From contig OZ022588.1 in NCBI GenBank assembly GCA_963669155.1, positions 7,340,679 through 7,404,678 of the forward strand: a DNA stretch of 64,000 nucleotides. The letters are read 5' to 3'. Position 1 is the first letter of the stretch; every line of letters begins with the position of its first letter. This DNA is from Arbacia lixula. Lineage: Eukaryota; Echinodermata; Echinoidea; Arbacioida; Arbaciidae. The notes beneath the pieces were generated by a model. It did not search any database and was not told the origin of the DNA. It was given only the letters and a program-made list of their open reading frames with translations. The position numbers were made by a program, and so were the translations under genes. Below, in pieces: positions 27,620-58,002 of the stretch.

Positions 27620-27934
27620 CTGTGCAGCATTAATTGCAACATACGCCAACGTCTTCCGCATGGCCACAGTTGTGGGTCCGAATACCGGCATTGCCGCAAT
27701 TGAAGATGCTTGCTTCTGTCCCGGTACAGTCGACATCGTCGAGGATGATCGGACCGGATCCCTCGCCATAGTAAGCACTGGCGTAAACGGTTCCAGAATC
27801 GCTTAATCCCAGCTGTCGGCACACCACAGCAGCATCGGTTTCGTCAAATAGGTCATCACACACCGTACCCCACTCTCCATTGTCATACACCTCAACCCGA
27901 CCTTGTTTATGATCCGCTCCACCCACCAGGCGTA
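27620..27934 (-). CDS. SRCR exon, domain 14 (last), contains the stop codon
   Basis: Acceptor ttccctcag at 27934. The domain is the most diverged of the set: [28 protein letters not shown], and [12 protein letters not shown] before GVCC. A TAA at 27630-27632 replaces the first residue after the final cysteine-Asn, ten bases upstream of a still-intact donor (CAG|gtgagg, 27618-27619). The exon is exactly as long as its paralogs (315 bp), so the stop looks like a change inside a formerly internal exon. Confidence 0.8.
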
Positions 27935-30900
27935 CTGAGGGAAAGCAATAAAGACCAAAATTAAGATACTTTCCTTGTCACGTATGATCAATAAAAAGTG
28001 ATTTATTAATGTAATTTCTGTCAATATTCATCGACATATTCGAATAAAGATGACCGTAATATATAGGACGAATACGTTCCCGCAATAATGATACCTTTTA
28101 ACTTAAAGGACACTCGAACATCACCTATCAGGCCCACGTAGCAGATGAACACTTAATCTTCATAGTGGCCGCAGCTATGGCTCATCATCATCATCATCAT
28201 CATCATAATCATCACCATCATCATCATCATAGAAGTGGCAGTGGGTTGAGAGAAATGGAAATATATTCAATGTATTTTTTAACCTAAAACTCATGGATTG
28301 GATCTTTTGTAGAGCCTCCAACAAACTTCGTTCAGAAAGCCTTAGGATATGACTCAAGCACGTGCCAATCTTCGTCATATGGAGGAAAGTGGTAAATATA
28401 CATTTTTTTGAAAGAGTTAAAAAAACGAGGTGTGTGTCATTCTATTCATTTTCTTAATTTTGTTGAGATAAAGAAAAAACTAATGATAGGAGCTGATGAA
28501 TGTGCTGATGTAATCATGACGCATGATCTCTTCCACAACATGAAGTGCACCCATAAGATTTAGGACCTGATTCTATAGAAAATGACTTTTGAATGGTCTT
28601 CAATATCGTTTGACTGATTATCAATTCTTTTGTCCGTGATATTCCTAGTAACATTCAATTATAATATTACATATTATAATACTACAACTGTTTTTGAACA
28701 AAAAACTCATTGATTGGGTCTTTTGTAGAGCCTCTAACAAACTTCGTTCAGAAAACTTTAGAATAGGACTCAAACACGTGCCAATCTTCGTCATATCGAG
28801 GAAAGTGGTAAACATATTTTTTTTCGAGCCGTATGATAGTTACACAAATAAATAGAAATATATTAATGTATTACCTGTCGGGCCCACGTCGCAGATTACA
28901 CCCACATCTTCAGAGTGGCCGCAGTTGTGGCTCAGAACATCGCGGCTGGAGCAGTCGAAGATGTCCGACTCGGTCCCGGTGCAGGCAACATCGTCCAGAA
29001 TGATTGGATCGGATCCTTGACCAAAGTGAGCACTTCCATAAGCGGTTCCAGAATCGCCGAGGCCAAGCTGGCGACACACCACAGCAGCTTCGGTAGCGCC
29101 AAACCCGTCATCACACACCGTGCCCCACTGTCCATTGTAATACACCTCAACTCGACCTTCGCTTGAAGACGAACCATCGACCAGGCGAACTGATAGAAAA
29201 AACAAATGTTAAACTTGGTGTGTTTAGAACTATCAAGTTTCTCAACTTTTTTGAAGACGGAAAACAAAACTGCTGCCAGGAGTTGATGAAGTTGTTGATG
29301 AAATCATGTCCCATGGTCTCTTTCACAAAATGACCACCCCCATTAGATTTGGGACTTGGTGCTTTGGAAAATGCCTTTTGAATTGACCCAAATATCATTT
29401 CTTTTGTCCGTGATATTCCTAGTAACCTTCAAGAACATATTATAATACTACAACTGTTTTTGAAGATAAAACTCATGTAATGGGTCTTTTGCAGAGCCTC
29501 CAACAAACTTCGATCAGAAAGCCTTAGAATTGGACTCAAGCACGTGCCAATCTTTGTCATCATGGTCATGGCGAGCAAAGTGGTAAATATATCTTTTTCG
29601 AGCCGTATGATAGTTACACAAATAAATAGAAATATATCAATATATTACCTGTCGGGCCCACGTCGCAGATTACACCCACATCTTCAGAGTGTCCGCAGTT
29701 ATGGGTCAGAACTTCGCGGCTGGAGCAGTCGAAGATGTCCGACTCGGTCCCGGTGCAGGCAACATCGTCCAGAATGATTGGATCGGATCCTTGACCAAAG
29801 TGAGCACTTCCATAAGCGGTTCCAGAATCGCCGAGGCCAAGCTGGCGACACACCACAGCAGCATCGGTATCGCCAAACCCGTCATCGCACACCGTGCCCC
29901 ACTGTCCATTGTAATACACCTCAACTCGACCTTCGTTTGAAGACGACCCATCGACCAGGCGAACTGATAGTAAAAACAAATGTTAAACTTGGTGTGTTTA
30001 GAACTATCAAGTTTCTCAACTTTTTTGAAGACGGAAAACAAAACTGATGCCAGGAGTTGATGAAGTTGTTGATGAAATCATGTTCCACGGTCTCTTTCAC
30101 AAAATGACCACCCCCATTGGATTTGGGACTTGGTGCTTTGGAAAATGCCTTTTGAATTGACCCAAATATCATTTCTTTTGTCCGTGATATTCCTAGTAGC
30201 CTTCAAGAACATATTATAATACCACAACTGTTCTTGAAGGTAAAACTCATGTATTGGGTCTTTTGCAGAGCCTCCAACAAACTTCGATCAGAAAGCCTTA
30301 GAATAGGACTCAAGCACGTGCCAATCTTTGTCATCATGGTCATGGCGAGCAAAGTGGTAAATATATCTTTTTCGAGCTGTATGATAGTTACACAATAAAT
30401 AGAAATATATTAATGTATTACCTGTCGGGCCCACGTCGCAGATTACACCCACATCTTCAGGGTGTCCGCAGTTATGGGTCAGAACTTCGCGGCTGGAGCA
30501 GTCGAAGATGTCCGACTCGGTCCCGGTGCAGGCAACATCGTCCAGAATGATTGGATCGGATCCTTGACCAAAGTGAGCACTTCCATAAGCGGTTCCGGAA
30601 TCGCCGAGGCCAAGCTGGCGACACACCACAGCAGCATCGGTATCGCCAAACCCGTCATCGCACACCGTGCCCCACTGTCCATTGTAATACACCTCAACTC
30701 GACCTTCGTTTGAAGACGACCCATCGACCAGGCGAACTGATAGTAAAAACAAATTTTAAACTTGGTGTGTTTAGAACTATCAAGTTTCTCAACTTTTTTG
30801 AAGACGGAAAACAAAACTGATGCCTGGAGTTGATGAAGTTGTTGATGAAATCATGTCCTACGGTCTCTTTCCCAAAATGACCACCCCCATTAGATTTGGG

Positions 30901-33900
30901 ACTTGGTGCTTTGGAAAATGCCTTTTGAATTGACCCAAATATCATTTCTTTTGTCCGTGATATTCCTAGTAACCTTCAAGAACATATTACAATACTACAA
31001 ATTGTTTTGAAGGTAAAACTCATGTATTGGGTCTTTTGCAGAGCCTCCAACAAACTTCGTTCAGAAAGCCTTAGAATAAGACCCAAGCACGTGCCAATCT
31101 TTGTCATCATGGTCACGGCGAGCAAAGTGGTAAATATATTTTTTTTCGAGCCGTATGATAGTTACACAAATAAATAGAAATATATTAATGTATTACCTGT
31201 CGGGCCCACGTCGCAGATTACACCCACATCTTCAGAGTGGCCGCAGTTATGGGTCAGAACTTCGCGGCTGGAGCAGTCGAAGATGTCCGACTCGGTCCCG
31301 GTGCAGGCAACATCGTCCAGAATGATTGGATCGGATCCTTGACCAAAGTGAGCACTTCCATAAGCGGTTCCGGAATCGCCGAGGCCAAGCTGGCGACACA
31401 CCACAGCAGCATCGGTATCATCAAAATAGTCATCGCACACCGTGCCCCATTGTCCATTGTAATACACCTCAACTCGACCTTCGTTTGAAGACGACCCACC
31501 GACCAGGCGAACTGATAGTAAAAACAAATGTTAAACTTGGTGTGTTTAGAACTATCAAGTTTCTCAACTTTTTTGAAGACGGAAAACAAAACTGCTGCCA
31601 GGAGTTGATGAAGTTGTTGATGAAATCATGTCCCACGGTCTCTTTCACAAAATGACCACCCCCATTGGATTTGGGACTTGGTGCTTTGGAAAATGCCTTT
31701 TGAATTGACCCAAATATCATTTCTTTTGTCCGTGATATTCCTAGTAACCTTCAAGAACATATTATAATACTACAACTGTTTTTGAATGTAAAACTCATTT
31801 ATTGGGTCTTTTGCAGAGCCTCCAACAAACTTCGATCAGAAAGCCGAACTGATACATAAGATACAGCAACCGCAAATATCGCAATACAGACTGCTGTGTT
31901 GACTGCTGATTTCTCCGCTATTTTCATACTTTTTGTGAATCCATGAGCTTTATGATAGTGAACTGTTGATTGATAATGGACATGCTTATCTAAATCCTGT
32001 GGATACGACCTGAGGGCAGAGAACATGTGGATTAAGTAATTTTCAGTGAAATATTATATGTTTCTCCTGGAGGATTGTAACTAGTTCTGGACTACTGACT
32101 TCACAACTGGTCCCACATACTCATTTTTATGTTTGCTGTTGCCAGCGTGCACACCACTACTGCGCGTCTATTGAACGACAGCTTCTATTGTGAGTACCTT
32201 GGCCAATTTAACCACCTATTGTTATCAGCTTGTCCAGCCAGGCACCAGACTCTATTCATTGCTACGCTGAGGTGCCTCGGTTGAATAACTTTACATTGAA
32301 CTATACACTACTTGCTACAAACCAAGAGCTTGGGTCATTAACATTTTGACTTCAGTAATCAAGCTATAATACTTGAAGCTATGCCACCAAAGGTTAGGAA
32401 ATCGGAAAGAAATATGGCTTCTTCCTCAGATACTCCTGATGTCTGTGACCAGATTGGTGAGGAAGTAAAGGACTACTTCAGCACTCAGGATTTCCGTAAC
32501 TTGTTCCAGGCATCACTTACTGATGCCATCACAAACCAGATGACGGAGCTCAGAGACAAGTTAGAAAACGCCGAAGGCAAAATCCTGACACTAGAAAATA
32601 TTGTCAGGGAAAAGACAGCTATCATCGAACGTCTCCAGGAGAAGCAAACACGCATCATAGACGACATTAATTCAATTCATCGAGAACAGAATGATGATGA
32701 ACAATACTTGCGCAGGAACTGCGTGAGACTCTACGGAATCCCTGAACAGCCGCAAGAGAATACAGATGCCCTGACTCTTGACCTTGCCAACAACGAACTC
32801 CAACTCAATCTAAAATTAGATGATATTGACCGATCTCATCGAGTAGGCCCTCCGCGTCAACCCACGAGAGCAGGAGATAGATCGCACCCACCAAGACCCA
32901 TCATAGTGAAATTCACCTCTTATCGTGCCCGCCACCTCATGATCAGGAACCGTAAGATGCTGAAAGGAAAAAGAAAGGGAATTGAAGAGGATCTGACAGC
33001 AGCTAATCGACTTCTGTTGAAGGAAGCAAAAAAGGAGGTAGAACAGAACGACAAGTTGGTTGCCGCATGGTCATCCGATGGTAGGATAATCGTGCTAACA
33101 AAAGCTACCAATGGACAAACAATACGCAAGCGGATTCGCTCTGTAAATGACTTGAAAATCCTGTGAGAACTCAAAATTTATGCGAACTGAACTTACTGAA
33201 CTTTGAACTGCATCATCTGCTCGAATAATCATATTTTTGTCAATGCCCTTTATTTCTATATAATTTCACAACCTTGCATTTTTTGTGAGTGTTAAATGTA
33301 TTATATTACTTATAATTTCATTGAGGATTTTTATTTTGTATAAATGAGTGTGTGTGTTCAGTGTGGTAGCTCTTCTTCTTTCTGTCCTACTCAGTTGTGG
33401 TTATGCACTCAATGTACTTCTACTGTATTCCCATTCAACCATGTATATGACGATAATGAATATTACTGGACCATGTATGACTTCTTTCATTTAAACCGGA
33501 GGATTGATATTGAACAGTTGTTACGATTAAAAATTAAACCCATTTTATATTGATAAACACGATTTCAATAGTCTTTTCGACACAGATCTGGTACTAAATA
33601 ATTCATGTAAATACACTTTTTGCGAAGAATTTAATGAACAATTTAGTAAATTTAACTCAAAACTCTCACTCCTCCATTTAAATGCTCGAAGCCTAAATAA
33701 AAATTTTGATGGGTTACAAATTTTACTATCATCTCTTAACTTTGAATTTGATGTTATTGCTATAAGTGAAACCTAATTTAATCCTTCTACAAATATTGAT
33801 ATGTATAATCTACAGGGATATTCTCTTATTTCAAAATGTAGACCTTCAAAATCTGGTTGGGGAGTTGCACTTTATTTGAAAAATAATCTAAATTATTACA

Positions 33901-36900
33901 TTCTTCATGATTTTACTTGTTCCGAATCCAATTATGAAATGGTGTTCATTGAAATAACTAAAAAAACTAAACCTATAATTGTTGCCTGCATTTATCGTCC
34001 ACCAGATTGTGACATATCATGTTTTAATGAAAAAATACAAAATGTTCTTGAAATGTTGGAAAGTGATAAGAAAGACATATATATCTTAGGTGATTTTAAT
34101 ATAAATTTACTAAATTATAGTATCCATAATAAAACAAATGACTTTTTAGACACAATGTTTTCTTTCAACTTATATCCCTTGATAACAAAACCTACTCGCA
34201 TTACTGAAAATAAAGCATCATTAATCGATAATATTTTTACAAATACCATACAAGAAGAAAAACACACAGGGCTTATTTATAGTGACCTTTCAGATCACTT
34301 CCCAGTATTTTCGGTTGCAAATGAAATGATTGTAAAACCTGTTACCAAGTACATGTATATAAAAAACGTATTATTAATGACTCATCAATGTCAATATTCA
34401 AAGATCGTTTATCATTAATTGATTGGTCAGAAGTTTATAATTGTGATAATGCAAACGACTCTTATGATATATTCTTTGAAAAATTTAATTTTATTTATAA
34501 CGATTGTTTGCCACTTAAGTCTGTTAAACAATATAATAAAAATGTACATAATCCTTGGATAACGCAAGCTATACTAAAGTCTGTGAAACGTAAGCATCGA
34601 TTACATGAAACTGCCTCAAAAAGACCTAGTGACAATCATAAACAAAAATACTTAGAATACAAAAATAAATTAACAAATATTATAAGAGTATCAAAAAGAA
34701 AATATTATGAGTCATTATTCAAAAATTTACATGATGATATGAAAAAAACGTGGTCCCAGATTAATATCATACTTGGTCGAAAGAAAGTAAATAGATTACC
34801 CCAAAATATGTATCATGGAAATATAAAACTGAGTAGTAAGAAACGTGTTGCACAACAGTTCAATGATTTTTTTATCAATGTTGGGAAAAACCTTTCAACA
34901 TCATTTCAAACTCAAAATCACTCATTTGATGAATATCTTTTAAACCCAAATATGAGTTCATTTTATGTTAAATCAACAAATATTCAAGAAATAATTAAAT
35001 TGTCATCTTTGTTAAAAGCAGAAAAATCAAATGGGCCCGACTCTATTTCACCCAAAGTTATAAAAAATTGTATTCAATATTTCGTTAATCCATTGTCTGA
35101 CGTATTTAATAAATCTTTGAACACTGGAATAGTCCCAGATAAACTTAAAGTTGCTAAGATTGTACCTGTTTACAAGAAGAATGATATTAAAAATGTAGAA
35201 AATTAAAGACCCATTGCTTTACTTTCCATTTTTGCTAAATTATTAGAAAAGATAATGCATAAAAGATTGTATGATTATTTACTCAAATTTAATTGTCTTA
35301 CTTCAAAACAGTTTGGTTTCCGTGAAAAACACAGTACTGATTTAAGTGTAGCAAATTTTACAAGTAATGTTCTAAATGAAATTAATAATAAAATGTTTTG
35401 TTATGGTGTATTTATGGACTTATCTAAAGCATTCGACACCATCGACCACCATATTTTACTTTAAAAATTATATTATTATGGTGTAAGAGGTATTCCCCAT
35501 CAATGGTTTTCAAATTATTCATGTGATAGAAAACAGTATGTGGTGGTCGATGGTGTTGAATCTGATTATTTGAATGTAAATATCGGAGTTCCTCAGGGAT
35601 CTGTCCTCGGTCCGCTGTTATTTATTATTTATGTTAACGACATTATAAACTCATCCAAATTGCTCATGTTTTCATTATTTGCTGATGATACGGTTGTGTA
35701 TTTTTCTCATTCTGATATATCACAGTTAGTATCTATTTTAAATGAAGAATTAGTAAAATTGAATATTTGGTTTAAATGTAACAAATTATTCTTAAACTAT
35801 GACAAAACAAAATATGTAATTTTTCACACAAAGAAAAAGAAAATTCCTAATTCTATCGATCCAGTTAAAATAGCCAATGTAACTATTGAACGAGAACAAA
35901 GTGTATTCTTTTTAGGTACTCATATTGAAGAAACTCTTGATTGGAAATGTCATATTGACTATGTTTGTTCTAAAATTTCTAAAACTACCGGTATTTTGTC
36001 TAAACTGAAAAATTTTCTTCCCAGGAACATACTTATGAATATTTATAATGCAACAATTCTTCCCTATCTAAATTACTGCAATATCACCTGGGGCAATACT
36101 TACAAAACAAAACTGATCAAAATTTATAAATTACAAAAACGTGCTGCTCGTTTTATTACTAATAGTCATTATTTGGCCCCTAGTATAACATTATTTATTA
36201 AATTACGAATTATTCCTGTCTTCGATTTGATTAAATTAAATACATCAATATTTATGTTCAAATTTCACAAAAAAATATTACCATCTGTATTCATTAATAT
36301 GTTCCAAACCAATTCTTCGGTTCACAATTAACTAACTCGTCAAAGTAGCAACTTACATCATCCCCTTTCCCGTTCAACTTCTTTGCATAATTCGTTATTG
36401 TTTGTTGGGGTACGTGAATGGAATTCACTTGATCATGACATAAGATCCAGTTCCACAATTACCAGATTTAAATCTATGTATAAAAAATGTATATTTCAAA
36501 GAATGACATCCTCAACTGAGTAGGAAATCTTCTTTCATCTTTCTGCTTGAATCTCTTTTCCCCTTCTCTTTTCCCCTTTTCTCTATATCATCTTGATTTC
36601 TAATCTACCACTGTGTGTATCCTCATGTGTATGTGTGTGTGTGTCTGCCTGTCTGCGTGTGTATGTCTGTGTGTGTATATGTATGCATGTTTAGACTATT
36701 AATGTTTGTTATTTTTAAAAATGTGTATATGTAGTTATTGTTTGTCTGTAATATGGAGCCTGATTTATAAGCAGAACACTGCTTTACAAGGGTCCAAACC
36801 ATTACTTTTTGTATATGTTATGTTGAAAATGTTTTGTTTGTTTTTGTTATTTATGATAATAATGGTTGAATGAAGTTGAAATTGAAATTGAATTGAATTG

Positions 36901-39900
36901 AAGCCTTAGAATAGGACTCAAGTACGTGCCAATCTTTGTCATCATGGTCATGGCGAGCAAAGTGGTAAATATATCTTTTTCGAGCCGTATGATAGTTACA
37001 CAAATAAATAGAAATATATTAATGTATTACCTGTCGGGCCCACGTCGCAGATTACACCCACATCTTCAGAGTGTCCGCAGTTATGGGTCAGAACTTCGCG
37101 GCTGGAGCAGTCGAAGATGTCCGACTCGGTCCCGAAGCAGGCAACATCGTCCAGAATGATTGGATCGGATCCTTGACCAAAGTGAGCACTTCCATAAGCG
37201 GTTCCAGAATCGCCGAGGCCAAGCTGGCGACACACCACAGCAGCATCGGTATCGCCAAACCCGTCATCGCACACCGTGCCCCACTGTCCATTGTAATACA
37301 CCTCAACTCGACCTTCGTTTGAAGACGACCCATCGACCAGGCGAACTGATAGTAAAAACAAATGTTAAACTTGGTGTGTTTAGAACTATCAAGTTTCTCA
37401 ACATGTTTGTGAAGACAGAAAACAAAACTGCTGCCAGGAGTTGATGAAGTTGTTGATGAAATCATGTCCCACGGTCTCTTTCACAAAATGACCACCCCCA
37501 CTGGATTTGGGACTTGGTGCTTTGGAAAATGCCTCTTGAATTGACCCAAATATCATTTCTTTTGTCCGTGATATTCCTAGTAACCTTCAAGAACATATTA
37601 TAATACTACAACTGTTTTTGAAGGTAAAACTCATGTAGTGGGTCTTTTGCAGAGCCTCCAACAAACTTCGATCAGAAAGCCTTAGAATAGGACTCAAGTA
37701 CGTGCCAATCTTTGTCATCATGGTCATGGCGAGCAAAGTGGTAAATATATCTTTTTCGAGCCGTATGATAGTTACACGAATAAATAGAAATATATTAATG
37801 TATTACCTGTCGGGCCCACGTCGCAGATTACACCCACATCTTCAGAGTGTCCGCAGTTATGGGTCAGAACTTCGCGGCTGGAGCAGTCGAAGATGTCCGA
37901 CTCGGTCCCGGTGCAGGCAACATCGTCCAGAATGATTGGATCGGATCCTTGACCAAAGTGAGCACTTCCATAAGCGGTTCCGGAATCGCCGAGGCCAAGC
38001 TGGCGACACACCACAGCAGCATCGGTATCGCCAAACCCGTCATCGCACACCGTGCCCCACTGTCCATTGTAATACACCTCAACTCGACCTTCGTTTGAAG
38101 ACGATCCATCGACCAGGCGAACTGATAGTAAAAACAAATGTTAAACTTGGTGTGTTTAGAACTATCAAGTTTCTCAACTTTTTTGAAGACGGAAAACAAA
38201 ACTGATGCCAGGAGTTGATGAAGTTGTTGATGAAATCATGTCCCACGGTCTCTTTCACAAAATGACCACCCCCACTGGATTTGGGACTTTTGCTTTGGAA
38301 AATGCCTTTTGAATTGACCCAAATATCATTTCTTTTTTTCGTGATATTCCTAGTAACCTTCAAGAACATATCATAATACTACAACTGTTTTTGAAGGTAA
38401 AACTCATGTATTGGGTCTTTTGCAGAGCCTCCAACAAACTTCGATCAGAAAGCCTGAGAATAGGATTCAAGCACGTGCCAATGTTTGTCATCATGGTCAT
38501 GGCGAGCAAAGTGGTAAATATATTTTTTTTCGAGCCGTATGATAGTTACACAAATAAATAGAAATATATTAATGTATTACCTGTCGGGCCAAAGTCGCAG
38601 ATTACACCCACATCTTCAGAGTGTCCGCAGTTATGGGTCAGAACATCGCGTTTAGAACTATCAAGTTTCTCAACTTTTTTGAAGACGGAAAACAAAACTG
38701 ATGCCAGGAGTTGATGAAGTTGTTGATGAAATCATGTCCCACGGTCTCTTTCACAAAATGACCACCCCATTGGATTTGGGACTTGGTGCTTTGGAAAATG
38801 CCTCTTGAATTGACCCAAATATCATTTCTTTTGTCCGTGATATTCCTAGTAACCTTCAAGAACATATTATATTACTACAACTGTTTTTGAATGTAAAACT
38901 CATGTATTGGGTCTTTTGCAGAGCTTCTAACAAACTTCGATCAGAAAGCCTTAGAATAGGACTCAAGTACGTGCCAATCTGTGTCATCATGGTCATGGCG
39001 AGCAAAGTGGTAAATATATCTTTTTCGAGCCGTATGATAGTTACACAAATAAACAGAAATATATTAATGTATTACCTGTCGGGCCCACGTCGCAGATTAC
39101 ACCCACATCTTCAGAGTGGCCGCAGTTGTGGCTCAGAACTCCGCGGTTGGAGCAGTCGAAGATGTCCGACTCGGTCCCGGTGCAGGCAACATCGTCCAGA
39201 ATGATTGGATCGGATCCTTGACCAAAGTGAGCACTTCCATAAGCGGTTCCAGAATCGCCGAGGCCAAGCTGGCGACACACCACAGCAGCATCGGTATCAT
39301 CAAAATAGTCATCGCACACCGTGCCCCACTGTCCATTGTAATACACCTCAACTCGACCTTCGTTTGAAGACGACCCATCGACCAGGCGAACTGATAGTAA
39401 AAACAAATGTTAAACTTGGTGTGTTTAGAACTATCAAGTTTCTCAACTTTTTTGAAGACGGAAAACAAAACTGCTACCAGGAGTTGATGAAGTTGTTGAT
39501 GAAATCATGTCCCACGGTCTCTTTCACAAAATGACCACCCCCATTGGATTTGGGACTTGGTGCTTTGGAAAATGCCCTTTGAATTGACCCAAATATCATT
39601 TCTTTTGTCCGTGATATTCCTAGTAACCTTCAAGAACATATTATAATACTACAACTGTTTTTGAAGGTAAAACTCATGTATTGGGTCTTTTGCAGAGCCT
39701 CCAACAAACTTCGATCAGAAAGCCTTAGAATAAGACTCAAGCACGTGCCAATCTTTGTCATCATGGTCATGGCGAGCAAAGTGGTAAATATATTTCTTCG
39801 AGCCATATAATAGTTACACAAATAAATAGAAATATATTAATGTATTACCTGTCGGGCCCACGTCGCAGATTACACCCACATCTTCAGAGTGTCCGCAGTT

Positions 39901-42900
39901 ATGGCTCAAAACATCGCGGCTGGAGCAGTCAAAGATGTCTGACTCGGTCCCGGTGCAGGCAACATCGTCCAGAATGATTGGATCGGATCCTTGACCAAAG
40001 TGAGCACTTCCATAAGCGGTTCCAGAATCGCCGAGGCCAAGCTGGCGACACACCACAGCAGCATCGGTATCGCCAAACCCGTCATCGCACACCGTGCCCC
40101 ACTGTCCATTGTAATACACCTCAACTCGACCTTCGTTTGAAGACGACCCATCGACCAGGCGAACTAATAGTAAAAACAAATGTTAAACTTGGTGTGTTTA
40201 GAACTATCAAGTTTCTCAACTTTTTTGAAGACGGAAAACAAAACTGCTGCCAGGAGTTGATGAAGTTGTTGATGAAATCATGTCCCACGGTCTCTTTCAC
40301 AAAATGACCACCCTAATTGTATTTGGGACTTGGTGCTTTGGAAAATTCCCTTTGAATTGACCCAGATATCATTTCTTTTGTCCGTGATATTCCTAGTAAC
40401 CTTCAAGAACATATTATAATACTACAACTGTTTTTTAATGTAAAACTCATGTATTGGGTCTTTTGCAGAGTCTCCAACAAACTTCGTTCAGAAAGCCTTA
40501 GAATAGGACTCACTAACGTGCCAATCTTTGTCATCACGGTCATGGCGAGCAAAGTGGTAAATATATTTTTTCGAGCCGTACAATAGTTACACAAATAAAT
40601 AGAAATATATTAATGTATTACCTGTCGGGCCCACGTCGCAGATTACACCCACATCTTCAGAGTGTCCGCAGTTATGGGTCAAAACATCAAGGCTGGAGCA
40701 GTCGAAGATGTCCGACTCGGTCCCGAAGCAGGCAACATCGTCCAGAATGATTGGATCGGATCCTTGACCAAAGTGAGCACTTCCATAAGCGGTTCCAGAA
40801 TCGCCGAGGCCAAGCTGGCGACACACCACAGCAGCATCGGTATCATCAAAATAGTCATCGCACACCGTGCCCCATTGTCCATTGTAATACACCTCAACTC
40901 GACCTTCGTTTGAAGACGACCCATCGACCAGGCGAACTGATAGTAAAACCAAATGTTAAACTTGGTGTGTTTAGAACTATCAAGTTTCTCAACTTTTTTG
41001 AAGACGGAAAACAAAACTGATGCCTGGAGTTGATGAAGTTGTTGATGAAATCATGTCCTACGGTCTCTTTCACAAAATGACCACCCCCATTAGATTTGGG
41101 ACTTGGTGCTTTGGAAAATGCCTTTTGAATTGACCCAAATATCATTCCTTTTGTCCGTGATATTCCTAGTAACCTTCAAGAACATATTATAATACTACAA
41201 CTGTTTTTGAAGGTAAAACTCATGTATTGGGTCTTTTGCAAAGCCTCCAACAAACTTCGATCAGAAAGCCTTAGAATAGGACTCAAGCACGTGCCAATCT
41301 TTGTCATCATGGTCATGGCGAGCAAAGTGGTAAATATAGCTTTTTCGAGCCGTATAATAGTTACACAAATAAATAGAAATATATTAATGTATTACCTGTC
41401 GTGCCCACGTCGCAGATTACACCCACATCTTCAGAGTGTCCGCAGTTATGGTTCAGAACATCGCGGCTGGAGCAGTCGAAGATGTCCGACTCGGTCCCGG
41501 TGCAGGCAACATCGTCCAGAATGATTGGATCGGATCCTTGACCAAAGTGAGCACTTCCATAAGCGGTTCCAGAATCGCCGAGGCCAAGCTGGCGACACAC
41601 CACACCAGCATCGGTATCATCAAAATAGTCATCGCACACCGTGCCCCACTGTCCATTGTAATACACCTCAACTCGACCTTCGTTTGAAGACGACCCATCG
41701 ACCAGGCGAACTGATAGTAAAAACAAATGTTAAACTTGGTGTGTTTAGAACTATCAAGTTTCTCAACTTTTTTGAAGACGGAAAACAAAACTGCTGCCAG
41801 GAGTTGATGAAGTTGTTGATGAAATCATGTCCTACGGTCTCTTTCACAAAATGTCCACCCCAATTAGATTTGGGACTTGGTGCTTTGGAAAATGCCTTTT
41901 GAATTGACCCAAATATCATTTCTTTTGTCCGTGATATTCCTAGTAACCTTCAAGAACATATTATAATACTACAACTGTTTTTGAACGTAACACTCATGTA
42001 TTGGGTCTTTTGCAGAGCCTCCAACAAACTTCGATCAGAAAGCCTTAGAATAGGACTCAAGCACATGCCAATGTTTGTCATCATGGTCATGGCGAGCAAA
42101 GTGGTAAATATAGCTTTTTCGAGCCGTATGATAGTTACACAAATAAATAAAATATATCAAACGTAATACCTGTCGGGCCCACGTCGCAGATTACACCCAC
42201 ATCTTCAGAGTGTCCGCAGTTGTGGCTCAGAACTCCGCGGTTGGAGCAGTCGAAGATGTCCGACTCGGTCCCGGTGCAGGCAACATCGTCCAGAATGATT
42301 GGATCGGATCCTTGACCAAAGTGAGCACTTCCATAAGCGGTTCCGGAATCGCCGAGGCCAAGCTGGCGACACACCACAGCAGCATCGGTATCACCAAACC
42401 CGTCATCACACACCGTGCCCCACTGTCCATTGTAATACACCTCAACTCGACCTTCGTTTGAAGACGACCCATCGACCAGGCGAACTGATAGTAAAAACAA
42501 ATGTTAAACTTGGTGTGTTTAGAACTATCAAGTTTCTCAACTTTTTTGAAGACGGAAAACAAAACTGATGCCTGGAGTTGATGAAGTTGTTGATGAAATC
42601 ATGTCCTACGGTCTCTTTCACAAAATGACCACCCCCGTTAGATTTGGGACTTGGTGCTTTGGAAAATGCCTTTTGAATTGACCCAAATATCATTTCTTTT
42701 GTCCGTGATATTCCTAGTAACCTTCAAGAACATATTATAATACTACAACTGTTTTTGAAGGTAAAACTCATGTATTGGGTCTTTTGCAAAGCCTCCAACA
42801 AACTTCGATCAGAAAGCCTTAGAATAGGACTCAAGCACGTGCCAATCTTTGTCATCATGGTCATGGCGAGCAAAGTGGTAAATATAGCTTTTTCGAGCCG

Positions 42901-45900
42901 TATAATAGTTACACAAATAAATAGAAATATATTAATGTATTACCTGTCGTGCCCACGTCGCAGATTACACCCACATCTTCAGAGTGTCCGCAGTTGTGGC
43001 TCAGAACTCCGCGGTTGGAGCAGTCGAATATGTCCGACTCGGTCCCGAAGCAGGCAACATCGTCCAGAATGATTGGATCGGATCCTTGACCAAAGTGAGC
43101 ACTTCCATAAGCGGTTCCAGAATCGCCGAGGCCAAGCTGGCGACACACCACAGCAGCATCGGTATCGCCAAACCCGTCATCGCACACCGTGCCCCACTGT
43201 CCATTGTAATACACCTCAACCCGACCCTCTGTTGAAGACGATCCACCGACCAGGCGAACTGATTATAAAAAGAATAGTAAAACTAGGTTTACTACCCAAA
43301 TTTCTCATAAAAATTACACAAAATCTTGTAAATTTAACGCTGTTTAATATGACACCTTATATGATGTGTGAAAATGAACCATTCAAATGTTGTTAAAAAA
43401 TTGTTCAATACTACTTTTCTGTAGCAGCCATTTTTTAAAATGGCCGCAGTTGCTCTCCTGGGCAAAAATCGAGAGGGCTCAATATCCAAATTTGCGTGTA
43501 ATACATTATTCTATGTGAGTGCCAATTTTGGTGCTTTTAGACAAAAGTGAACAATTACGGCAAAAAAACGAGCTATGCCGCTGGACTACTGCAACTGATT
43601 CGAAAGCCATCATAATGGTACTGACACAGTGGGTTGAGAAGAATGGAAATATATTCAATGTATTACCTGGCAGGGAACAGCTTACACCTACATCTTCAGA
43701 ATGGCCACAGTTTTCGATGCCAAAACCGCGGTGGCTGCAGTCAAAGATGTCCGACTCGGTCCCAGTGCAGGCAACATCGTCCAGAATGATTGGATCGGAT
43801 CCTTGACCAAAGTGAGCGCTTCCATAAGCGGTTCCGGAATCGCCGAGGCCAAGCTGGCGACACACCACAGCAGCATCGGTATCGTCGAAATAGTCATCGC
43901 ACACCGTGCCCCACTCTCCATTGTAATAGACCTCAACTCGACCTTCGGTTGAAGACGACCCACCGACTAGGCGAACTGATTGCAAACAGATTTGTTGAAC
44001 GAGGTTTGTTTTATTCAATTGATTCTTTCCACTTCTTACAAAACTGGAAACAAAACTAATTCCAGGAGTTGATATATATATCTGCTGATCGAAATACGAC
44101 CCATTATCTCACCAACAAAACACCCTCACTTTAGATCTCTGACCTGGTTCTCTTGACAAATGTTTCTAACTGGCAAAACAAATTATTTTATTAATTTGTG
44201 ATATTCCTATCCAATCATCTATGTTTACAATTAACCGTATGGCAGAGCATCATCATGATCATACTGCAATTGGTTATGATCTTTACTATCATGCATTGGG
44301 CCTTCAGAACACTATCTAATAAATGCCGTCTAGGAGGACTGCCTGTCAATGCGAGTCAGAGAAAAATATTACACTTTCTTACATGCTCATGTTAGAAATA
44401 CAGGAGTAAATCATAACTCGTGTACCAGTCTCAGATAGAGTAACTCTTCCAGTATTATTTGATACCACATGTGTGGAGAATCAGTAATGAATTTATTGGA
44501 CCAAATATATTTCAACTATGATGTTGCGTGACGTCAGACCTCGAAATATTTATCACTATACCAATATTCTGACGTCATTTTTTCAGAAAACTGGATATTT
44601 TGCTATCGATATCCGTCAATCGATCGCTTAATTTTTGTACTGAGCTTGCACGACCGCCGCTGTGAAAGGTCGTTGATCAGCTGTGCATGTAAACTTAAAC
44701 AACAATGTCTGCGCCCAGTGACGAGCCGAGATTCAATCTCGTTGAAGATGGGGATTTGGAGGATTTTATTGCCTCGACAGATTCGGAGAATAAGAAGAAA
44801 CAGATCAAGTAGGGGTTTCTCTCTTGTAATAATTGAAGGATATAAATCAAATATACCATGCACTATTTTCGAAGTACCAGGTGAAATGATTGATTCCTCA
44901 GGGCAGGAATAGTACTATTTTTTCGGGGTTGCGCCCCTCAAATAATAGTACCCTTCATGCCACCTTTGAATCCATAATTTCACTGGAACTTCTCAGTGCA
45001 TGATATATTTGATTTTATATTCCACATACTAAGAATGTTGCTATGTGATTGGTCAAGAGTTATTCACGTGATAAAGCGTTTGTCCATCTGATCACCTGAG
45101 AATAAAAGTTCGTTACACTCTAAATGAGAGTATTTTTTGGTTTCACTGATCTCTTCACTCCTCACAGTCCTAACGCGTTATCAATATTTTGAGTACGCGC
45201 GAAATAAAAGTGCGTTACACTCGGACTACCAATTGACTGACGCGTCCTAACGCGCGTCCTATACGCGTGTTCCCCATGGCAGCGGCTCGGGGTTAGGTAG
45301 AGAAGTAAACATTACTTTTGTACGTCAAATTGACATTTTGGTATAGATAGTTGGTTTCAGATGTGGAATATAAAGCAAATAATCAACTTTTGGTTTCAGG
45401 CAATGAGACGAGCTATCACTTCCTCGGCGATCTGCAGGCGTACGCTATCTTTTCTAAGCTGCGCTTTGGAAAGATAGCTACATCCAGATCGCCTCGAAAG
45501 TGATAGTTCGTCCCATCACCTTCACAAACGTTAACTATTTGCTTAATAGTGAGTGGTCCACAAACCGGCCCCCGCGTATTTCTGCTCAGTGCGCGTTATC
45601 GAAGGTTGGATGCACGATTTATTGTGTATTTACGCATTAGTATGCACAATTTTCGGAAGCAAAATTAGACGAAATGTTCACATATTTGACAATTGCACAC
45701 TTTCGTTCGAAATATCTCTGTTTTTCAACTTGCGGTCGTACTTCCTTGATTTTCTCGTCGTTCGGCGAAACTTTTCCGTCAATTTTTCACTGCACTGGAA
45801 CGAGCATGATCGAGACCCAATACTGGTTAAAAGTGACCTTTTGGAGAAATACGAATTCCCCTCTTCCTTGATAGTTCTACCTGGCCATATTTTACAAAAG

Positions 45901-48900: not shown

Positions 48901-51900
48901 TGCTGTGAGCGTTCTCATTTCGGTGTGATGTTAGAAAAATCGCACTCTGAGTTGCGCTTTTTCATGCGATGTTCGGACGGCTGTTGGTACAGTTGCTAAA
49001 GCAACTTTCACCCAATAATTTTTCAAATTTCGCGATTTTTTTGTAAACCAATGAGAATGGCCCTATTGTGAGTAAATATTAGACAGCTCGCCTGACACTA
49101 CTGTTTGCAACTACATTAGGCGAATCGTCACATTAATTAACCTTTGTCTGTTCTTTTCAACATTGGTCCCCCAAATGAGTTTATACGCGAATTCTTTATG
49201 TAAATAAGAATCTTATGCTCGGATGGTTAAATCTAATTCATGTCTATCAACCAATTAGGTAACAGGATTATGGAGATGAGATATATAAATGTTATGATTA
49301 AAGAAGAATTCATTATAGCGCAACTCGCATTAAAAGTACTACAATAAAAGTAGACTGTATAGACTGCACGAAAACTACAATAGCTTGCTATAGATGAAGT
49401 CTTTTTCAGTGCTAGAAGTGAAGGGTCAGACGCTTGGCCAAGGTGAGCTTTTCCGTAAGCGATTCCGGAATCGCCGAGGCCAAGCTGGCGGCACACCACA
49501 CCAGCATCGGTATCGTAAAACCCTTCATCGCACACCGTGCCCCAATCTTCTGAACTTGACCTTTCGTTGAAGACGGCCCATCGACTAGGCGAACTGATTG
49601 CAAATAGAATCGTGCAACAAGGGATGTTTCATTCTATTGATTCTCTAGAAGGTACATTTTTTCCAGCAGATGATGAATTTGTCGATCTAAGCATGGCTCA
49701 TTATTCTCATTATATTTCGGACATGGTTCCTTTGACAAATTACCCTTAAGCTAGCCCAAATACCATTTTATATATTCGTGATGTTGATATTCCTAACCGA
49801 CTATTGATGTAAACATTCAACCATCTCCATTCTACAACGTTTGTCTTTTATTGGTTATTCAATATAGTTTAGAATCACATATTTTTGTATCTAACAGGGT
49901 TGTAGTACTTGTCTTCGGCCAAAGCTTTTAAATTGCCAGCCAAAGCAGGAGTGATAGTAGTCCTTTGGTTCAACATTTCCTTTTAAAATGAGCTTTCCTC
50001 CTCATGTTGCGAGCTAGTATTCTTTTTATTTGTAGCACCAATCTCTTCCATAAAGGATCGGCGCACCCATAGTGCTTTTAATTCGTGAAAAAAGCTCTTT
50101 GAATGTGGAAAACTTAACCCCTGCTTCTATATTCACCGTTCATGAGATTTCGTTTCATACGGTCTGTTCTTTTATTTCAAATTTACATCAAAGAAAATAT
50201 TCTGGAATGATTGATAAAAAAGCTGCTGCAAATCGTATATATTACCAAACAACCAGCCATTTCATTATGGAGATTTCCCCTTGTATTGTCAATTTTAGAT
50301 AAGCCCATTGTTTTAGTATGGTTTCTGCTTCTGGTAAATTTGTCAGAAAGTTTAAACAAAAGACATAATTTGAGAGACGTGAGACGGAAAAATGTTTTTA
50401 CTTTGTCTCACCATTAGAACTAGAATCGCAGCCCCTACTAGCACAAATATGATAACCAATGGCAACTCTGTCTCACAACGTTTTCAAATCAAAAACTTGA
50501 CGAGGAATAACCGTAATTAATTACACAGCGAGATACAGCTTTAATCAACACATTTAAACGACTTTTGGAGGATTCGAACTCTCGGAAAAACGAACTTTCG
50601 AAATAACGAGCTGTTTTTCGTTACTTATATTAGTAAAAGTGGAAAATATCTACCGCTCCTCTGATGCAAAATGTTTATATATATAAGTTTAAATGAAGAA
50701 AAAAAAGGTCCTGGAGCTGGGACCTATTTTTTCTTCATTTACACTTATCACTTATATACTCTGGAGCAACCGCTTGACATGTCGAAGTTGAGAACTCTCG
50801 CACTTATATATATATGATATATATAGTGTGCGTAAATAAAGAGTCTAGGAGCTGGGGCGTTGCTGGACCTTGCACGTCGGTATGCTGCAGCATACCGACC
50901 GACGAACCAACAACTAATTCCAGCTACGCCCCAGCTCCTAGACTCTTTCTTTACGCACATTGCATATTCTGGAGCCACCTTGTCATGTATAAGTCGGGAA
51001 TCATCACACTTATATGTATGTTACTGTGTATATTTATATTCTACCAGAATCTTAATATACCCATACTCAAACAACTAATCTACGAGGGTAGCATGCGCCA
51101 CAGCAGCCCAAAAACTGAAATTTCATCTCCCCTCCTGTAAATCACCCTTGATAACACGCCCTCAAATAACACTGAAGATACAATATTTCTGAGCTTCACT
51201 AGCCCCAAAATCTGAACAATTCAGATTATTTCTCACATTGGTTTAACGGAGTACTTAAGTAAAAGATTCTTGGAATTAGAACGAAGGACTCTAGGTGATT
51301 TGTACAAACTAATAAGTTCTTGAATATAGTCAGGAGAACTTCCATTTGACAATTTGATAATACAAGAAGTACATACAGTCAATCATCACGAAGGAATTTA
51401 ACTGTATGGAGGTACTTGAAGTTTTAATATTTGAAAGTGGGTGATTTCTGGACTCCGTTCAAAGATGAAGATTTACCAAATTTGATTTGAATATCGTTTA
51501 CAAATCACAATCACTCCCCTTCCCCCCCTTTTTCTTTTTTTTTTTTTTTTTTTTGGGGGGGGGGGATTTGTAGTTTAACTGGCCTCTTAAAAAGGGTTGA
51601 GTAAAAAGTTTAAGAACATTATTTCTTATACGGAACATAGTTTAAGGTACTAGCAATGCGCATTAGCCTGACTAAAACTGAGATTGGGCAGATTGTATAG
51701 GTACATAAATCATATCAGAATGTTCCCCCGACCCCTCTTCAATCGTTTTCTCAATGAACATGACTTCAATGTCATTATTTGAATGAGTACAATATGTTTA
51801 TTATTTCAATTATTATTATTTGAATGAGTACTATGTTTATTATTTCAATCATTATTTAGAAAATACCTGATGATTACAATGGATTTGCATGGCATCTATC

Positions 51901-52022
51901 ACATGTTCAAGTTTCTCAGCCTGTATACAAAATGTGCCAATATGAATATGTAATCAGTACTTACCAGTTTGGGCACTTGCCGCAGAGAGCAGGCAGACCG
52001 TTAAAAACGCCACCAGAAACAT
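27630..52022 (-). CDS. Secreted multi-SRCR protein, 14 tandem SRCR domains (spliced, 15 coding exons)
   Basis: Exons in order: 51965-52022 (signal peptide), 43667-43975, 42944-43258, 42170-42484, 41396-41710, 40622-40936, 39849-40163, 39076-39390, 37807-38121, 37031-37345, 31197-31511, 30422-30736, 29649-29963, 28875-29189 and 27620-27934 (stop at 27630-27632). Every junction is phase 1 and restores a Val codon at the start of the xRLVxG domain opening. The spliced product would be 1483 aa: a 19-residue signal peptide followed by about 103-105 residues per domain. No transmembrane segment follows, so it should be secreted. Each domain has six cysteines. SRCR proteins bind microbial or cellular ligands and are greatly expanded in sea urchins; the ligand here is unknown and an immune role is inference. 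Exon inclusion could vary, because any exon can be skipped in frame. Confidence 0.85.
28125..28183 (-). pseudogene. Decayed SRCR exon stub with (CAT)n
   Basis: Bases 28125-28183 (ctatcaggcccacgtagcag onward to ggccgcagctatggctca) match the 3' end of the SRCR exons with about ten changes and retain the donor position. The rest of the exon is gone and replaced by a cat microsatellite (28181-28230). Downstream intron words of the 774-bp unit follow at 28292-28410. Confidence 0.65.
28875..29189 (-). CDS. SRCR exon, domain 13
   Basis: Intact 315-bp phase 1-1 exon. Variable segments: [24 protein letters not shown]. It is slightly more diverged than the central units (GATE in place of GDTD). Donor gtaata, acceptor ctatcag. 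Confidence 0.9.
29649..29963 (-). CDS. SRCR exon, domain 12
   Basis: Intact 315-bp phase 1-1 exon. Variable segments: [24 protein letters not shown]. It lies 774 bp from the domain 13 exon, with near-identical intron sequence. Confidence 0.9.
30422..30736 (-). CDS. SRCR exon, domain 11
   Basis: Intact 315-bp exon. Variable segments as domain 12, but with Pro in place of Ser in CGHPED near the end, the only copy with this change. Spacing 773 bp. Confidence 0.9.
31197..31511 (-). CDS. SRCR exon, domain 10
   Basis: Intact 315-bp exon. Variable segments: [24 protein letters not shown]. Opens VRLVGG rather than VRLVDG. Its upstream intron (higher coordinates) carries the LINE insertion. Confidence 0.9.
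32381..33166 (+). CDS. LINE ORF1 protein (coiled coil plus RRM-like domain), 261 aa
   Basis: Intact frame. Residues about 35-110 are charged and heptad-like (coiled coil). A block with [19 protein letters not shown] and [14 protein letters not shown] matches the RRM-like region of L1/CR1-type ORF1 proteins. A basic C-terminal part follows ([19 protein letters not shown], then [12 protein letters not shown]). Such proteins bind LINE RNA as multimers in the ribonucleoprotein. The Met start is the first in frame after a 535-bp leader. The gene belongs to the transposon, not the host. Confidence 0.8.
   Translation: MPPKVRKSERNMASSSDTPDVCDQIGEEVKDYFSTQDFRNLFQASLTDAITNQMTELRDKLENAEGKILTLENIVREKTAIIERLQEKQTRIIDDINSIHREQNDDEQYLRRNCVRLYGIPEQPQENTDALTLDLANNELQLNLKLDDIDRSHRVGPPRQPTRAGDRSHPPRPIIVKFTSYRARHLMIRNRKMLKGKRKGIEEDLTAANRLLLKEAKKEVEQNDKLVAAWSSDGRIIVLTKATNGQTIRKRIRSVNDLKIL
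33344..36523 (+). pseudogene. LINE ORF2 (Cys-rich, AP endonuclease, reverse transcriptase), broken
   Basis: It opens with a PHD-like Cys motif (CVQCG...WLCTQC, then FPFNHV). The frame then shifts once between about 33500 and 33550. The AP-endonuclease part includes [12 protein letters not shown], a stop at 33774-33776 directly after ISET where a Trp is usual, [16 protein letters not shown] and [11 protein letters not shown] second frameshift falls near 34360. RT follows with a stop at 35204-35206, [12 protein letters not shown], a stop at 35462-35464, [19 protein letters not shown] and the catalytic FADD. A fourth stop at 36329-36331 precedes the usual TRQSSN...WNSL end, which closes at TAG 36521-36523. 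Four stops and two frameshifts mean it is not functional. Confidence 0.85.
37031..37345 (-). CDS. SRCR exon, domain 9
   Basis: Intact 315-bp exon. Variable segments: [15 protein letters not shown] (Phe for Thr), SSREVLTHN. First exon on the far side of the LINE insertion. Confidence 0.9.
37807..38121 (-). CDS. SRCR exon, domain 8
   Basis: Intact 315-bp exon. Variable segments: [24 protein letters not shown]. Protein identical to domain 12 across the domain core. Confidence 0.9.
38581..38650 (-). pseudogene. Truncated SRCR exon stub (278-bp deletion)
   Basis: Only the last 70 bp of an SRCR exon remain, still with the gtaata donor. They are fused directly to intron sequence (tttagaactatcaag) that normally lies 33 bp beyond the acceptor. 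The deletion removes 245 bp of exon, the acceptor and 33 bp of intron. That explains the 495-bp spacing to the next unit (774 minus 278 or 279). Without an acceptor the stub should be skipped, leaving the frame intact. Confidence 0.9.
39076..39390 (-). CDS. SRCR exon, domain 7
   Basis: Intact 315-bp exon. Variable segments: [24 protein letters not shown]. Confidence 0.9.
39849..40163 (-). CDS. SRCR exon, domain 6
   Basis: Intact 315-bp exon. Variable segments: [24 protein letters not shown]. The acceptor reads ctattag instead of the usual ctatcag and is still valid. Confidence 0.9.
40622..40936 (-). CDS. SRCR exon, domain 5
   Basis: Intact 315-bp exon. Variable segments: [24 protein letters not shown], a combination seen nowhere else in the array. 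Confidence 0.9.
41396..41710 (-). CDS. SRCR exon, domain 4
   Basis: Intact 315-bp exon. Variable segments: YFDDTDAG (Gly at the end), [16 protein letters not shown]. The C-terminal linker is VGTTG instead of VGPTG. Confidence 0.9.
42170..42484 (-). CDS. SRCR exon, domain 3
   Basis: Intact 315-bp exon. Variable segments: [24 protein letters not shown]. Donor region slightly diverged (gtatta after the exon). Confidence 0.9.
42944..43258 (-). CDS. SRCR exon, domain 2
   Basis: Intact 315-bp exon. Variable segments: [24 protein letters not shown]. Opens [14 protein letters not shown] like domain 1, and its upstream intron is diverged from the 774-bp unit, marking the edge of the homogenised array. 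Confidence 0.9.
43667..43975 (-). CDS. SRCR exon, domain 1 (first)
   Basis: A 309-bp exon, two codons shorter than the others at the C-terminal linker (GVSCSLPG). Variable segments: [27 protein letters not shown]. Flanking introns are not part of the 774-bp unit. The acceptor is ttgcaatcag and splicing from the signal-peptide exon is phase 1. This is one of the two older, diverged end copies. Confidence 0.85.
44529..44577. promoter_or_regulatory. Pair of perfect CRE motifs (TGACGTCA)
   Basis: TGACGTCA occurs at 44529-44536 and again at 44570-44577, with a CCAAT at 44561. Two perfect 8-bp palindromes 41 bp apart in AT-rich DNA suggest a CREB/ATF-type promoter. They lie about 130 bp upstream of a plus-strand ATG at 44705. 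Confidence 0.4.
44705..44812 (+). CDS. Short ORF, possible first exon of an unknown or transposon-derived gene (35 aa)
   Basis: An ATG in good context (aacaATGt) opens [20 protein letters not shown] and continues [15 protein letters not shown] to TAG. The acidic stretch followed by a '[10 protein letters not shown]' segment faintly recalls the N-terminus of Crypton-derived tyrosine-recombinase proteins, where similar text leads into the core-binding domain. A donor-like AA|GTAGGG overlaps the stop, so it could be a first exon. No second exon was found. It lies within SRCR intron 1, on the opposite strand. Confidence 0.3.
   Translation: MSAPSDEPRFNLVEDGDLEDFIASTDSENKKKQIK
45010..45548 (+). 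repeat. Dispersed repeat with inverted ends and hairpin, copy 1
   Basis: Starts tttatattccacatactaag, which is inverted later as atgtggaatataaag (about 45360-45376). It is followed by a fold-back block (45391-45545) whose arms contain gctatcacttcctcggcgat and its inverse. The front part has attggtcaagagttattcac and a CACGTG E-box. The same arrangement recurs at 55458-56352 in direct orientation. Confidence 0.7.
45549..46708. other. No gene recognised
   Basis: Moderately CpG-containing sequence with several short open frames. No motif or splice context was found. Confidence 0.4.
46709..47108. repeat. Tandem duplication, about 200-bp unit
   Basis: ttgctggatcctgaccc, gccaatactccagcagaga and tacggacttcgcaaccgat occur twice about 200 bp apart with about 15% differences. 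Open frames differ between copies, so coding is unlikely. Confidence 0.75.
47510..48250 (-). mobile_element. CR1/L2-type LINE, 3' end fragment
   Basis: The minus-strand frame 47887-48246 reads [38 protein letters not shown] and [19 protein letters not shown], the conserved post-RT C-terminus of CR1/L2-like LINEs. Further along the minus strand, a 3' region ends with gcgctatataaatgct and a taa/tta microsatellite (47514-47532), the usual tail of such elements. Truncated upstream. Confidence 0.8.
49413..49593 (-). pseudogene. SRCR exon fragment in intron 1
   Basis: A usable acceptor (ttgcaatcag) and [15 protein letters not shown] open the domain. About 16 bp are then missing, which shifts the frame. 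It continues [20 protein letters not shown] and [15 protein letters not shown] before losing similarity at about 49413. The cysteines after position 39 and the donor are lost. It is a relic of an additional first-position SRCR exon. Confidence 0.85.
50682..50958. repeat. Two adjacent long hairpins with a perfect inner palindrome
   Basis: Hairpin 1 (about 50682-50748) has arms taaatgaagaaaaaa / ttttttcttcattta around ggtcctggagctgggacc. Hairpin 2 (50828-50958) has arms gtgcgtaaataaagagtcta / tagactctttctttacgcac continuing through ggagctggggcg. A perfect 24-bp palindrome at 50876-50899 lies in its loop. Words from the flanks recur at 50968-51030. Probably a small fold-back element family. Confidence 0.7.
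51965..52022 (-). CDS. SRCR gene exon 1: start codon and signal peptide
   Basis: The ATG at 52020-52022 opens [19 protein letters not shown]: hydrophobic core [10 protein letters not shown], small residues ASA before a likely cleavage site, then a donor ctg|gtaagt at 51964. The last base of the exon gives a phase-1 junction, exactly matching all SRCR exons. The spliced reading QT-VRLVGG places the first domain right after cleavage. It is too short to stand out as an open frame, and no better start for the SRCR array is visible. Confidence 0.75.
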
Positions 52023-52120
52023 CTTGGGTAGTATCAGATCGGCTGATCTCGCTATCACGTCGGCATGAATTTCTAAGACGAACTTGCCTCAGATGTTACG
52101 TGATCGAGCAGCCGCAATTA

Positions 52121-52128
52121 CTTTTATC
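52121..52128 (-). promoter_or_regulatory. TATA-like box of the SRCR gene
   Basis: On the minus strand, gataaaag lies about 100 bp upstream of the ATG at 52022, allowing a start site near 52095 and a 5' UTR of about 70 nt. Position is reasonable, but the match is imperfect. Confidence 0.3.
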
Positions 52129-55100: not shown

Positions 55101-55457
55101 TCTCGGGCATAGGTGAATTCCAAAGTACAAAAGAAGGCTATGAAAGGCTATTCCTTTTGCCCAAATCTTATTCCAAACTTGACAAGAAATTATACTAATT
55201 GAATCGATCACATCGTGATTTAAAAGAGCGCACTGATAGTATGATTGTCTGCAATTTCTAGGATATAGTTAGACGACATATCCCCCAAATGATTTGAACT
55301 GCAAAGTCAATATGGACATGTAAAAGTAATTTTCTATTGTCTGAGGATTTTTTTTTAAAAGATATGTTCTTCTATATGCTGTGATATTGATTGTTTATTT
55401 GAGGGGATACCCCACATTTAACTAAGGTCCCAACACCATTCCTGTTGGCTGTTTATA
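52129..55457. other. Intergenic; no gene recognised
   Basis: Between the SRCR promoter and the dispersed repeat. Contains a poly-T run near 52977-52989, a G/A-rich stretch near 53150-53440, an A run near 53558-53570 and an (ATCA)n run near 53905-53930. Short frames have no motif. Confidence 0.5.
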
Positions 55458-56352: not shown

Positions 56353-56499
56353 ACAACTACAGTTAGTTTCCGAGAAGTGTTGGGTAAGTGTTGGGTAAGG
56401 TAAGCTCTGGAGGGAGGTGGCTCAAAGAAAGATGAAGAAACTAACTTGTAGAAGACTTAAAACAAACATATTTTAATGCTAAATATGTTACTAAGTGTG

Positions 56500-57917: not shown

Positions 57918-58002
57918 CTAGGCGTTCCCGTCGCTCACGTCATTTGCGTCCTCGCGTGGTGCTGGGCTCTGCTTATAACGAGTCCACTTGTCCTGTCCGA
58001 TG
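57918..58002 (-). CDS. Fibropellin-like gene, last exon (avidin-like end)
   Basis: Acceptor ctctctctag at 58002; the phase-2 junction makes [13 protein letters not shown], matching the last strand of avidins (xATxVGxDxFT). A short tail [18 protein letters not shown] ends at TAG. Without this exon the previous frame would end at a TAA formed by its own donor (AA|gtaaga), so the splice is needed to complete the barrel. Confidence 0.8.

Follow-up and report, generated by a model that had tools for sequence, protein, structure and literature searches.

Copying and exchange among the units of a 774-bp SRCR exon-intron array in the sea urchin Arbacia lixula

How do a dozen consecutive exons, together with the introns between them, come to be nearly identical, and what might a protein assembled from such exons do? 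The question is raised by a 64,000-nucleotide stretch of the genome of Arbacia lixula (GenBank assembly GCA_963669155.1, contig OZ022588.1, positions 7,340,679 to 7,404,678 of the forward strand; hereafter the window, with positions counted from its first base), in which self-comparison of the 64 kb revealed a tandem family of SRCR exons at 28.6–43.3 kb. The comparisons described here lend good support to a history in which whole units were copied and then exchanged sequence with one another. We further consider it quite probable that the product of the locus is secreted, serves in pattern recognition and is built from SRCR domains only, its repeats having been generated by unit duplication and subsequent exchange; it would be expected to work in the manner of DMBT1.

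A tblastn search with one exon as the query recovered twelve intact SRCR exons, one exon stub, two diverged exons and two relics, all on the minus strand (Table 1). The twelve intact exons, numbered U01 to U12 in gene order, constitute the array, whose outermost bases are exactly 28875 and 43258; both these limits and the tally of twelve exons plus a stub had been given in an earlier note on this DNA and were confirmed by the search and the exon coordinates. The signal-peptide exon, U00, U13 and the two relics described below went unmentioned in that note. All twelve are 315 bp long, open, and bordered by an AG acceptor and a GT donor. They start with TT after the AG and end with a single G before the GT, and hence are in phase 1 on each side. 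The two diverged exons, U00 and U13, share 88% and 71% amino acid identity with U01. Pfam was run on 18 open reading frames (ORFs) of the window, those of U01 and U00 among them; these two scored 110.2 and 109.8 bits against an SRCR cut-off of 26.1 bits. When the exons themselves were used to construct a profile, it matched the array exons with E values of 3e-66 or better and U13 with 2e-57.

The spacing of 773–776 bp reported in the earlier note is found in nine of the eleven exon-to-exon steps. A regular 774-bp spacing throughout was rejected, as two steps deviate: U06–U07 (1269 bp) and U08–U09 (5834 bp). In gene order the array thus consists of runs of six, two and four exons, with two scars. 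The shorter of the irregular steps holds a stub unit that lacks about 280 bp. This deletion fuses the upstream intron to the last part of an SRCR exon at ≈38650 and took the acceptor along with most of the exon; the acceptor being lost, the stub should be skipped in splicing, in which case the reading frame is kept. The longer step contains a decaying non-LTR (long terminal repeat) retrotransposon, antisense to the SRCR gene. It is framed by a 5-bp target duplication (AAGCC, 31841–31845 and 36901–36905), ends in a short TTGAA-like tail, and explains the excess length exactly (5834 − 5055 − 5 = 774). Two of the four plus-strand ORFs scanned in this element gave Pfam matches, to Exo_endo_phos_2 (1e-10) and RVT_1 (3e-13). 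The upstream ORF gave no convincing Pfam match, and the second reading frame is interrupted by stops and a frame change. Retrotransposon and stub each occur once in the array.

The array exons differ from one another by 3.4% on average (range 0.6–7.0%, 66 pairs) and encode 11 distinct protein sequences among the twelve. The introns differ by 3.9% on average (range 0.7–7.2%, 66 pairs of 12 introns); this set includes the intron of the stub and omits the one downstream of U12, which is 16–20% different and diverges at the array end. The claim that introns are almost as similar as exons therefore holds. Mean nonsynonymous divergence (dN) among the exons is 0.027 and mean synonymous divergence (dS) is 0.064 (66 pairs), which supports purifying selection overall. 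One could envisage an old array in which such selection on the protein keeps the units mostly alike, with no exchange between them; dN is lower than dS, and the cysteines and cation-ligand residues are fixed in all twelve exons, as this would predict. Protein selection cannot, however, account for the likeness of the introns, and U00 and U13, although part of one gene model with the array, are down to 88% and 71% amino acid identity. Selection alone was rejected because the introns are nearly as alike as the exons, and we regard it as very improbable.

Evidence for exchange comes from the way in which variants are combined along the units. The phi test and the counts of shared variants were carried out with 11 units, excluding the stub intron and also U12, because of the divergence of its downstream intron at the array end; for phi, sites gapped in any unit were removed as well. 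Among 29 informative two-state sites, 255 of 406 pairs were incompatible with one tree. Phi was 0.39 as compared to a permuted mean of 0.63, a value as low being reached in none of 5000 permutations. Sites close to each other are in conflict less often than under permutation, indicating recombination or conversion among units. The same is apparent from individual units: the exons of U01 and U03 differ by 6.3%, the introns following them by only 0.7%. At the protein level, the pair formed by residues 29 and 31 combines freely with the segment of residues 82–88 (GG occurs with three versions of it, YD with four), and the flanking exon U00 has the YFD type, as do four array exons. Variants present in at least two units were seen at 19 of 31 exon sites, as compared to 16 of the 76 variable intron sites (p 1e-4, Fisher test), the other 60 being private to one unit. 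After collapsing linked sites the contrast weakened to 13/20 versus 16/55 (p 0.007), a descriptive value given that the sites are not independent.

The earlier note had proposed that units were copied recently or are kept alike by conversion. Copying with exchange is borne out by phi and by the U01/U03 pair, while "recently" has no clock attached to it. For the purple sea urchin Strongylocentrotus purpuratus, a 4% difference between two individuals and one single-nucleotide polymorphism (SNP) per 100 bases within the sequenced individual have been reported (PMC2884547). The unit divergence of 3.9% is close to the former figure and about four times the latter. Judged by the 4% figure, exchange among units would proceed about as fast as alleles coalesce; judged by the SNP figure, the divergence between units is several times that between two alleles. 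Both comparisons depend on the species.

As unit divergence is about as large as the 4% difference between individual purple urchins (PMC2884547), alleles might also be mistaken for units. Two diverged haplotypes of a highly heterozygous animal might have been joined in the assembly, inflating or scrambling the array, so that the true unit number is smaller; the single-copy deletion junction at 38650 would be in keeping with this. A doubled haplotype predicts, however, one privileged offset at which units match best, and among unit offsets 1–8 none stands out (exon means 3.1–4.4%, intron means 3.6–4.3%), for which reason it was rejected as the main cause. Moreover, the window is free of N, the retrotransposon has its clean 5-bp target duplication, and retrotransposon and stub are each found once. 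We consider an assembly artefact of this kind improbable.

The SRCR exons can be joined into one predicted minus-strand gene comprising a signal-peptide exon, U00, U01 to U12 and U13; its splicing, expression and secretion are inferred. It has an open frame of 1483 amino acids with 14 SRCR domains, one exon per domain, and a stop immediately after the last of them. The predicted protein thus consists of SRCR domains only, which within the model is the pattern of echinoid SRCR-only proteins, and its 1483 residues contain no N-glycosylation sequon. The earlier note's statement that the protein stays open whatever the number of units is correct for the array exons, which are phase 1 at both ends and lie in a model open from signal peptide to stop. 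The predicted signal exon is the sole minus-strand match in the window for an ATG followed by a pronounced hydrophobic core and a well-formed donor in phase 1; its junction with U00 reads ...AQT-VRLVGG. On the plus strand the same pattern was matched three times, with weaker donors and in a low-complexity stretch. As a control, positions 43980–58400 were subjected to mononucleotide shuffling, and 18 of 100 shuffles gave some match, none of them as good. A polyadenylation-type signal lies ≈225 bp past the stop, which is weak evidence, as there are 12 such signals within 3 kb.

SRCR domains are classified as group A, with six cysteines, or group B, with eight, DMBT1 belonging to the latter (PMC10855680). 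Six conserved cysteines are present in 12/12 array exons and in U00, and U13 has these six plus one; the domains are accordingly of group A and not of the DMBT1 type. The seventh cysteine of U13 is adjacent to the sixth and could, speculatively, link two chains. In SRCR8 of DMBT1, cation site 2 is formed by D1019, D1020 and E1086 and site 3 by D1020, D1058, D1059 and N1081; replacing D1019 or D1020 by alanine eliminated binding in each of the three assays reported (PMC7043408). The unit matches DMBT1 chains at equal length (101 to 101 residues). With a constant shift of 992, the corresponding residues (D27, D28 and E94; D66, D67 and N89) are identical in all twelve array exons and also in U00 and U13. 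All 14 domains therefore probably bind ligand in a cation-dependent manner, as judged from these residues. Cation site 1, which is buried in DMBT1 SRCR8, differs: residue 31, equivalent to its side-chain ligand D1023, is Gly in eight array exons and Asp in four, so that units with and without this ligand would be mixed along one protein. U00 and U13 both have Asp here, which makes it probable that Gly is derived. In 6/8 cases a common variable residue is at most seven positions from a site-2 or site-3 residue, but no significant clustering was seen in a permutation test (p 0.09).

Several observations weigh against the explanation favoured here. The signal exon is 8 kb away from U00, which leaves room for further exons at 52.0–44.0 kb. 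Similarity is at most weakly related to the spacing of units in the array, Mantel r being 0.22 (p 0.08) for 12 exons and 0.06 (p 0.37) for 11 introns; adjacent units do not clearly resemble each other more than distant ones do, and a simple recent chain of unequal crossovers is not supported. Silent sites of the exons differ more (dS 0.064) than the introns (3.9%), meaning that exons and introns have been homogenised to an unequal degree; a possible explanation is that certain exon variants predate the latest homogenisation of the introns. Finally, the retrotransposon and the stub being single-copy argues that there has been no array-wide replacement since they arose. Amplification and shuffling might have ended and the unit number become fixed, which conflicts with our explanation on copy number only. 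The single-copy scars, the weak or absent relation between similarity and distance and the mostly private intron variants (60/76), as if units now age independently, are what this would predict. Near-identical pairs nevertheless persist (introns of U01/U03, 0.7%; exons of U07, U10 and U11, 0.6%), pointing to some exchange after the main amplification. We view a terminated, fixed array as possible but rather unlikely.

Table 1. Coordinates of the SRCR exons, relics and inserted element in the window, listed in gene order.
Feature	Positions	Strand	Basis or remark
Predicted first coding exon, signal peptide (19 residues)	51965..52022	-	phase-1 donor CTG/GTAAGT
Relic SRCR exon, frame-broken, truncated	49356..49597	-	tblastn pieces in two frames; profile E 3e-21, positions 19-85 only
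U00, intact but older SRCR exon of 309 bp, phase 1 at both ends, 88% amino acid identity to U01	43667..43975	-	tblastn; Pfam SRCR E 9e-32
U01, array SRCR exon	42944..43258	-	tblastn; Pfam SRCR E 7e-32
U02, array SRCR exon	42170..42484	-	tblastn
U03, array SRCR exon	41396..41710	-	tblastn
U04, array SRCR exon	40622..40936	-	tblastn
U05, array SRCR exon	39849..40163	-	tblastn
U06, array SRCR exon	39076..39390	-	tblastn
Exon stub, 3' end of SRCR exon	38581..38650	-	alignment break, junction sequence, profile match to positions 76-105
U07, array SRCR exon	37807..38121	-	tblastn
U08, array SRCR exon	37031..37345	-	tblastn
Non-LTR retrotransposon, 5055 bp, U08-U09 intron	31846..36900	+ (antisense to SRCR gene)	self-comparison, flanks, Pfam
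U09, array SRCR exon	31197..31511	-	tblastn
U10, array SRCR exon	30422..30736	-	tblastn
U11, array SRCR exon	29649..29963	-	tblastn
U12, array SRCR exon, array's last	28875..29189	-	tblastn
Possible tiny SRCR exon relic with stop, beside (TCA)n microsatellite	28135..28182	-	weak tblastn match, E 0.14
U13, terminal SRCR exon, 70.6% amino acid identity to U01, ends ...VCCN-stop	27630..27934	-	tblastn, profile

The tiny relic beside the microsatellite was absent from the matches of the profile search, which covered ORFs of 20 amino acids or more. Elsewhere in the window, an EGF exon (61.5–61.7 kb; Pfam EGF 5e-8) and two avidin exons (58.5–59.1 kb; Pfam Avidin 1e-13 and, just under the cut-off, 6e-5) are found on the minus strand. 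They apparently form one gene at 58474–61728, upstream of the SRCR gene, which we take to resemble fibropellin, an EGF-plus-avidin protein of sea urchins. Such a neighbour points to an echinoid source, as do the group A domains, the single exon for each SRCR domain and the SRCR-only composition of the predicted protein. Positions 61845–62191 are occupied by short tandem repeats with units such as GTTATTCCGAAGGTTC and near reverse complements beside them. Minus-strand matches to RVT_1 (19758–20495) and zf-RVT (10267–10650) represent retrotransposon fragments. A tRNA-like sequence at 7162–7234, also on the minus strand, was assigned to tRNA-Ile(GAT) by ARAGORN and scored 38 bits with the Rfam tRNA model. 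A possible TMEM53-like gene near 13.5–14 kb, suggested by its translation, had no Pfam support in the two ORFs tried.

In the secreted, SRCR-only protein that we propose, the twelve central domains would go back to a single exon-intron unit of 774 bp that was duplicated in tandem. Gene conversion together with unequal exchange would hold the units ≈96% alike and reshuffle a small number of coding cassettes, chiefly those of residues 29/31 and 82–88. With all array exons in phase 1-1, the gain, loss or skipping of a unit would preserve the frame, and the stub may represent one such loss. Many copies of a cation-dependent site could confer avidity for repetitive surfaces such as those of microbes, as in DMBT1, and the number of domains would tune binding. 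Near-identical direct repeats combined with symmetric exons would permit an instability like that of DMBT1, which is an argument from design, and it is plausible, by this analogy, that the array is prone to copy-number variation between individuals. Screening of titles and the beginnings of abstracts brought up no published copy-number variation in urchin SRCR genes, which is no proof of absence. What sets the locus apart from an ordinary SRCR gene is that its units are homogenised and yet keep coding cassettes in shuffled combinations, and it offers markers of turnover in the single retrotransposon, the single deletion stub and the diverged flanking exons.

Among solved structures, CD163 gave the top whole-chain scores, a rank that reflects its several domains per chain; the best single-domain scores were 136 bits for CD6, 129 for neurotrypsin, 124 for DMBT1 and 105 for CD163. 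Like the predicted protein, CD163 has several SRCR domains, and the unit aligns gaplessly to most of them among the matches listed, but it is a group B membrane receptor. The SpTransformer (185/333) genes of sea urchins are described as echinoid immune genes with mosaic internal repeats, a feature shared with the array, yet they constitute an unrelated protein family. The tandem clusters of SRCR-only genes in S. purpuratus resemble the array in devoting a single exon to each SRCR domain, in having domains of group A, in coding for SRCR-only proteins and in duplication at the level of domains (PMC10855680). The reported nucleotide similarity there is 84% for one exon pair of sibling genes, whereas here twelve exons within one gene model, and the introns as well, are ≈96–97% alike. 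Neither "copy number" nor "phase" appears in the main text of that article.

Human DMBT1, also known as salivary agglutinin or gp340, has alleles with 7–21 SRCR domains owing to copy-number variation (PMC9038570, PMC4851238). For CNV1, one of its two repeat variants, a mutation rate of 0.7–2.7% per generation has been reported (PMC4851238), and a form with 8 domains is reported to bind bacteria 30–40% less than the 13-domain form (PMC9038570); by analogy, chain length probably sets avidity in the Arbacia protein. The two have in common a long in-frame run of similar SRCR repeats on tandem genomic repeats, predicted secretion here, and the ligand-holding residues of sites 2 and 3 of SRCR8 in every array exon. 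They differ in that the domains of DMBT1 are of group B and those of the array six-cysteine group A. DMBT1 further contains SID, CUB and ZP domains, none of which is present in the gene model as it stands; 18 ORFs of the window were scanned with Pfam, so that there may be further exons. It is possible, though rather unlikely, that the locus is an invertebrate counterpart of DMBT1: a secreted, multivalent immune protein whose domain number would differ between animals and in which conversion would homogenise the scaffold while shuffling cassettes. If true, this would allow one to ask whether variable domain number, as in DMBT1, generally tunes multivalent recognition, and to do so in an invertebrate without general adaptive immunity.

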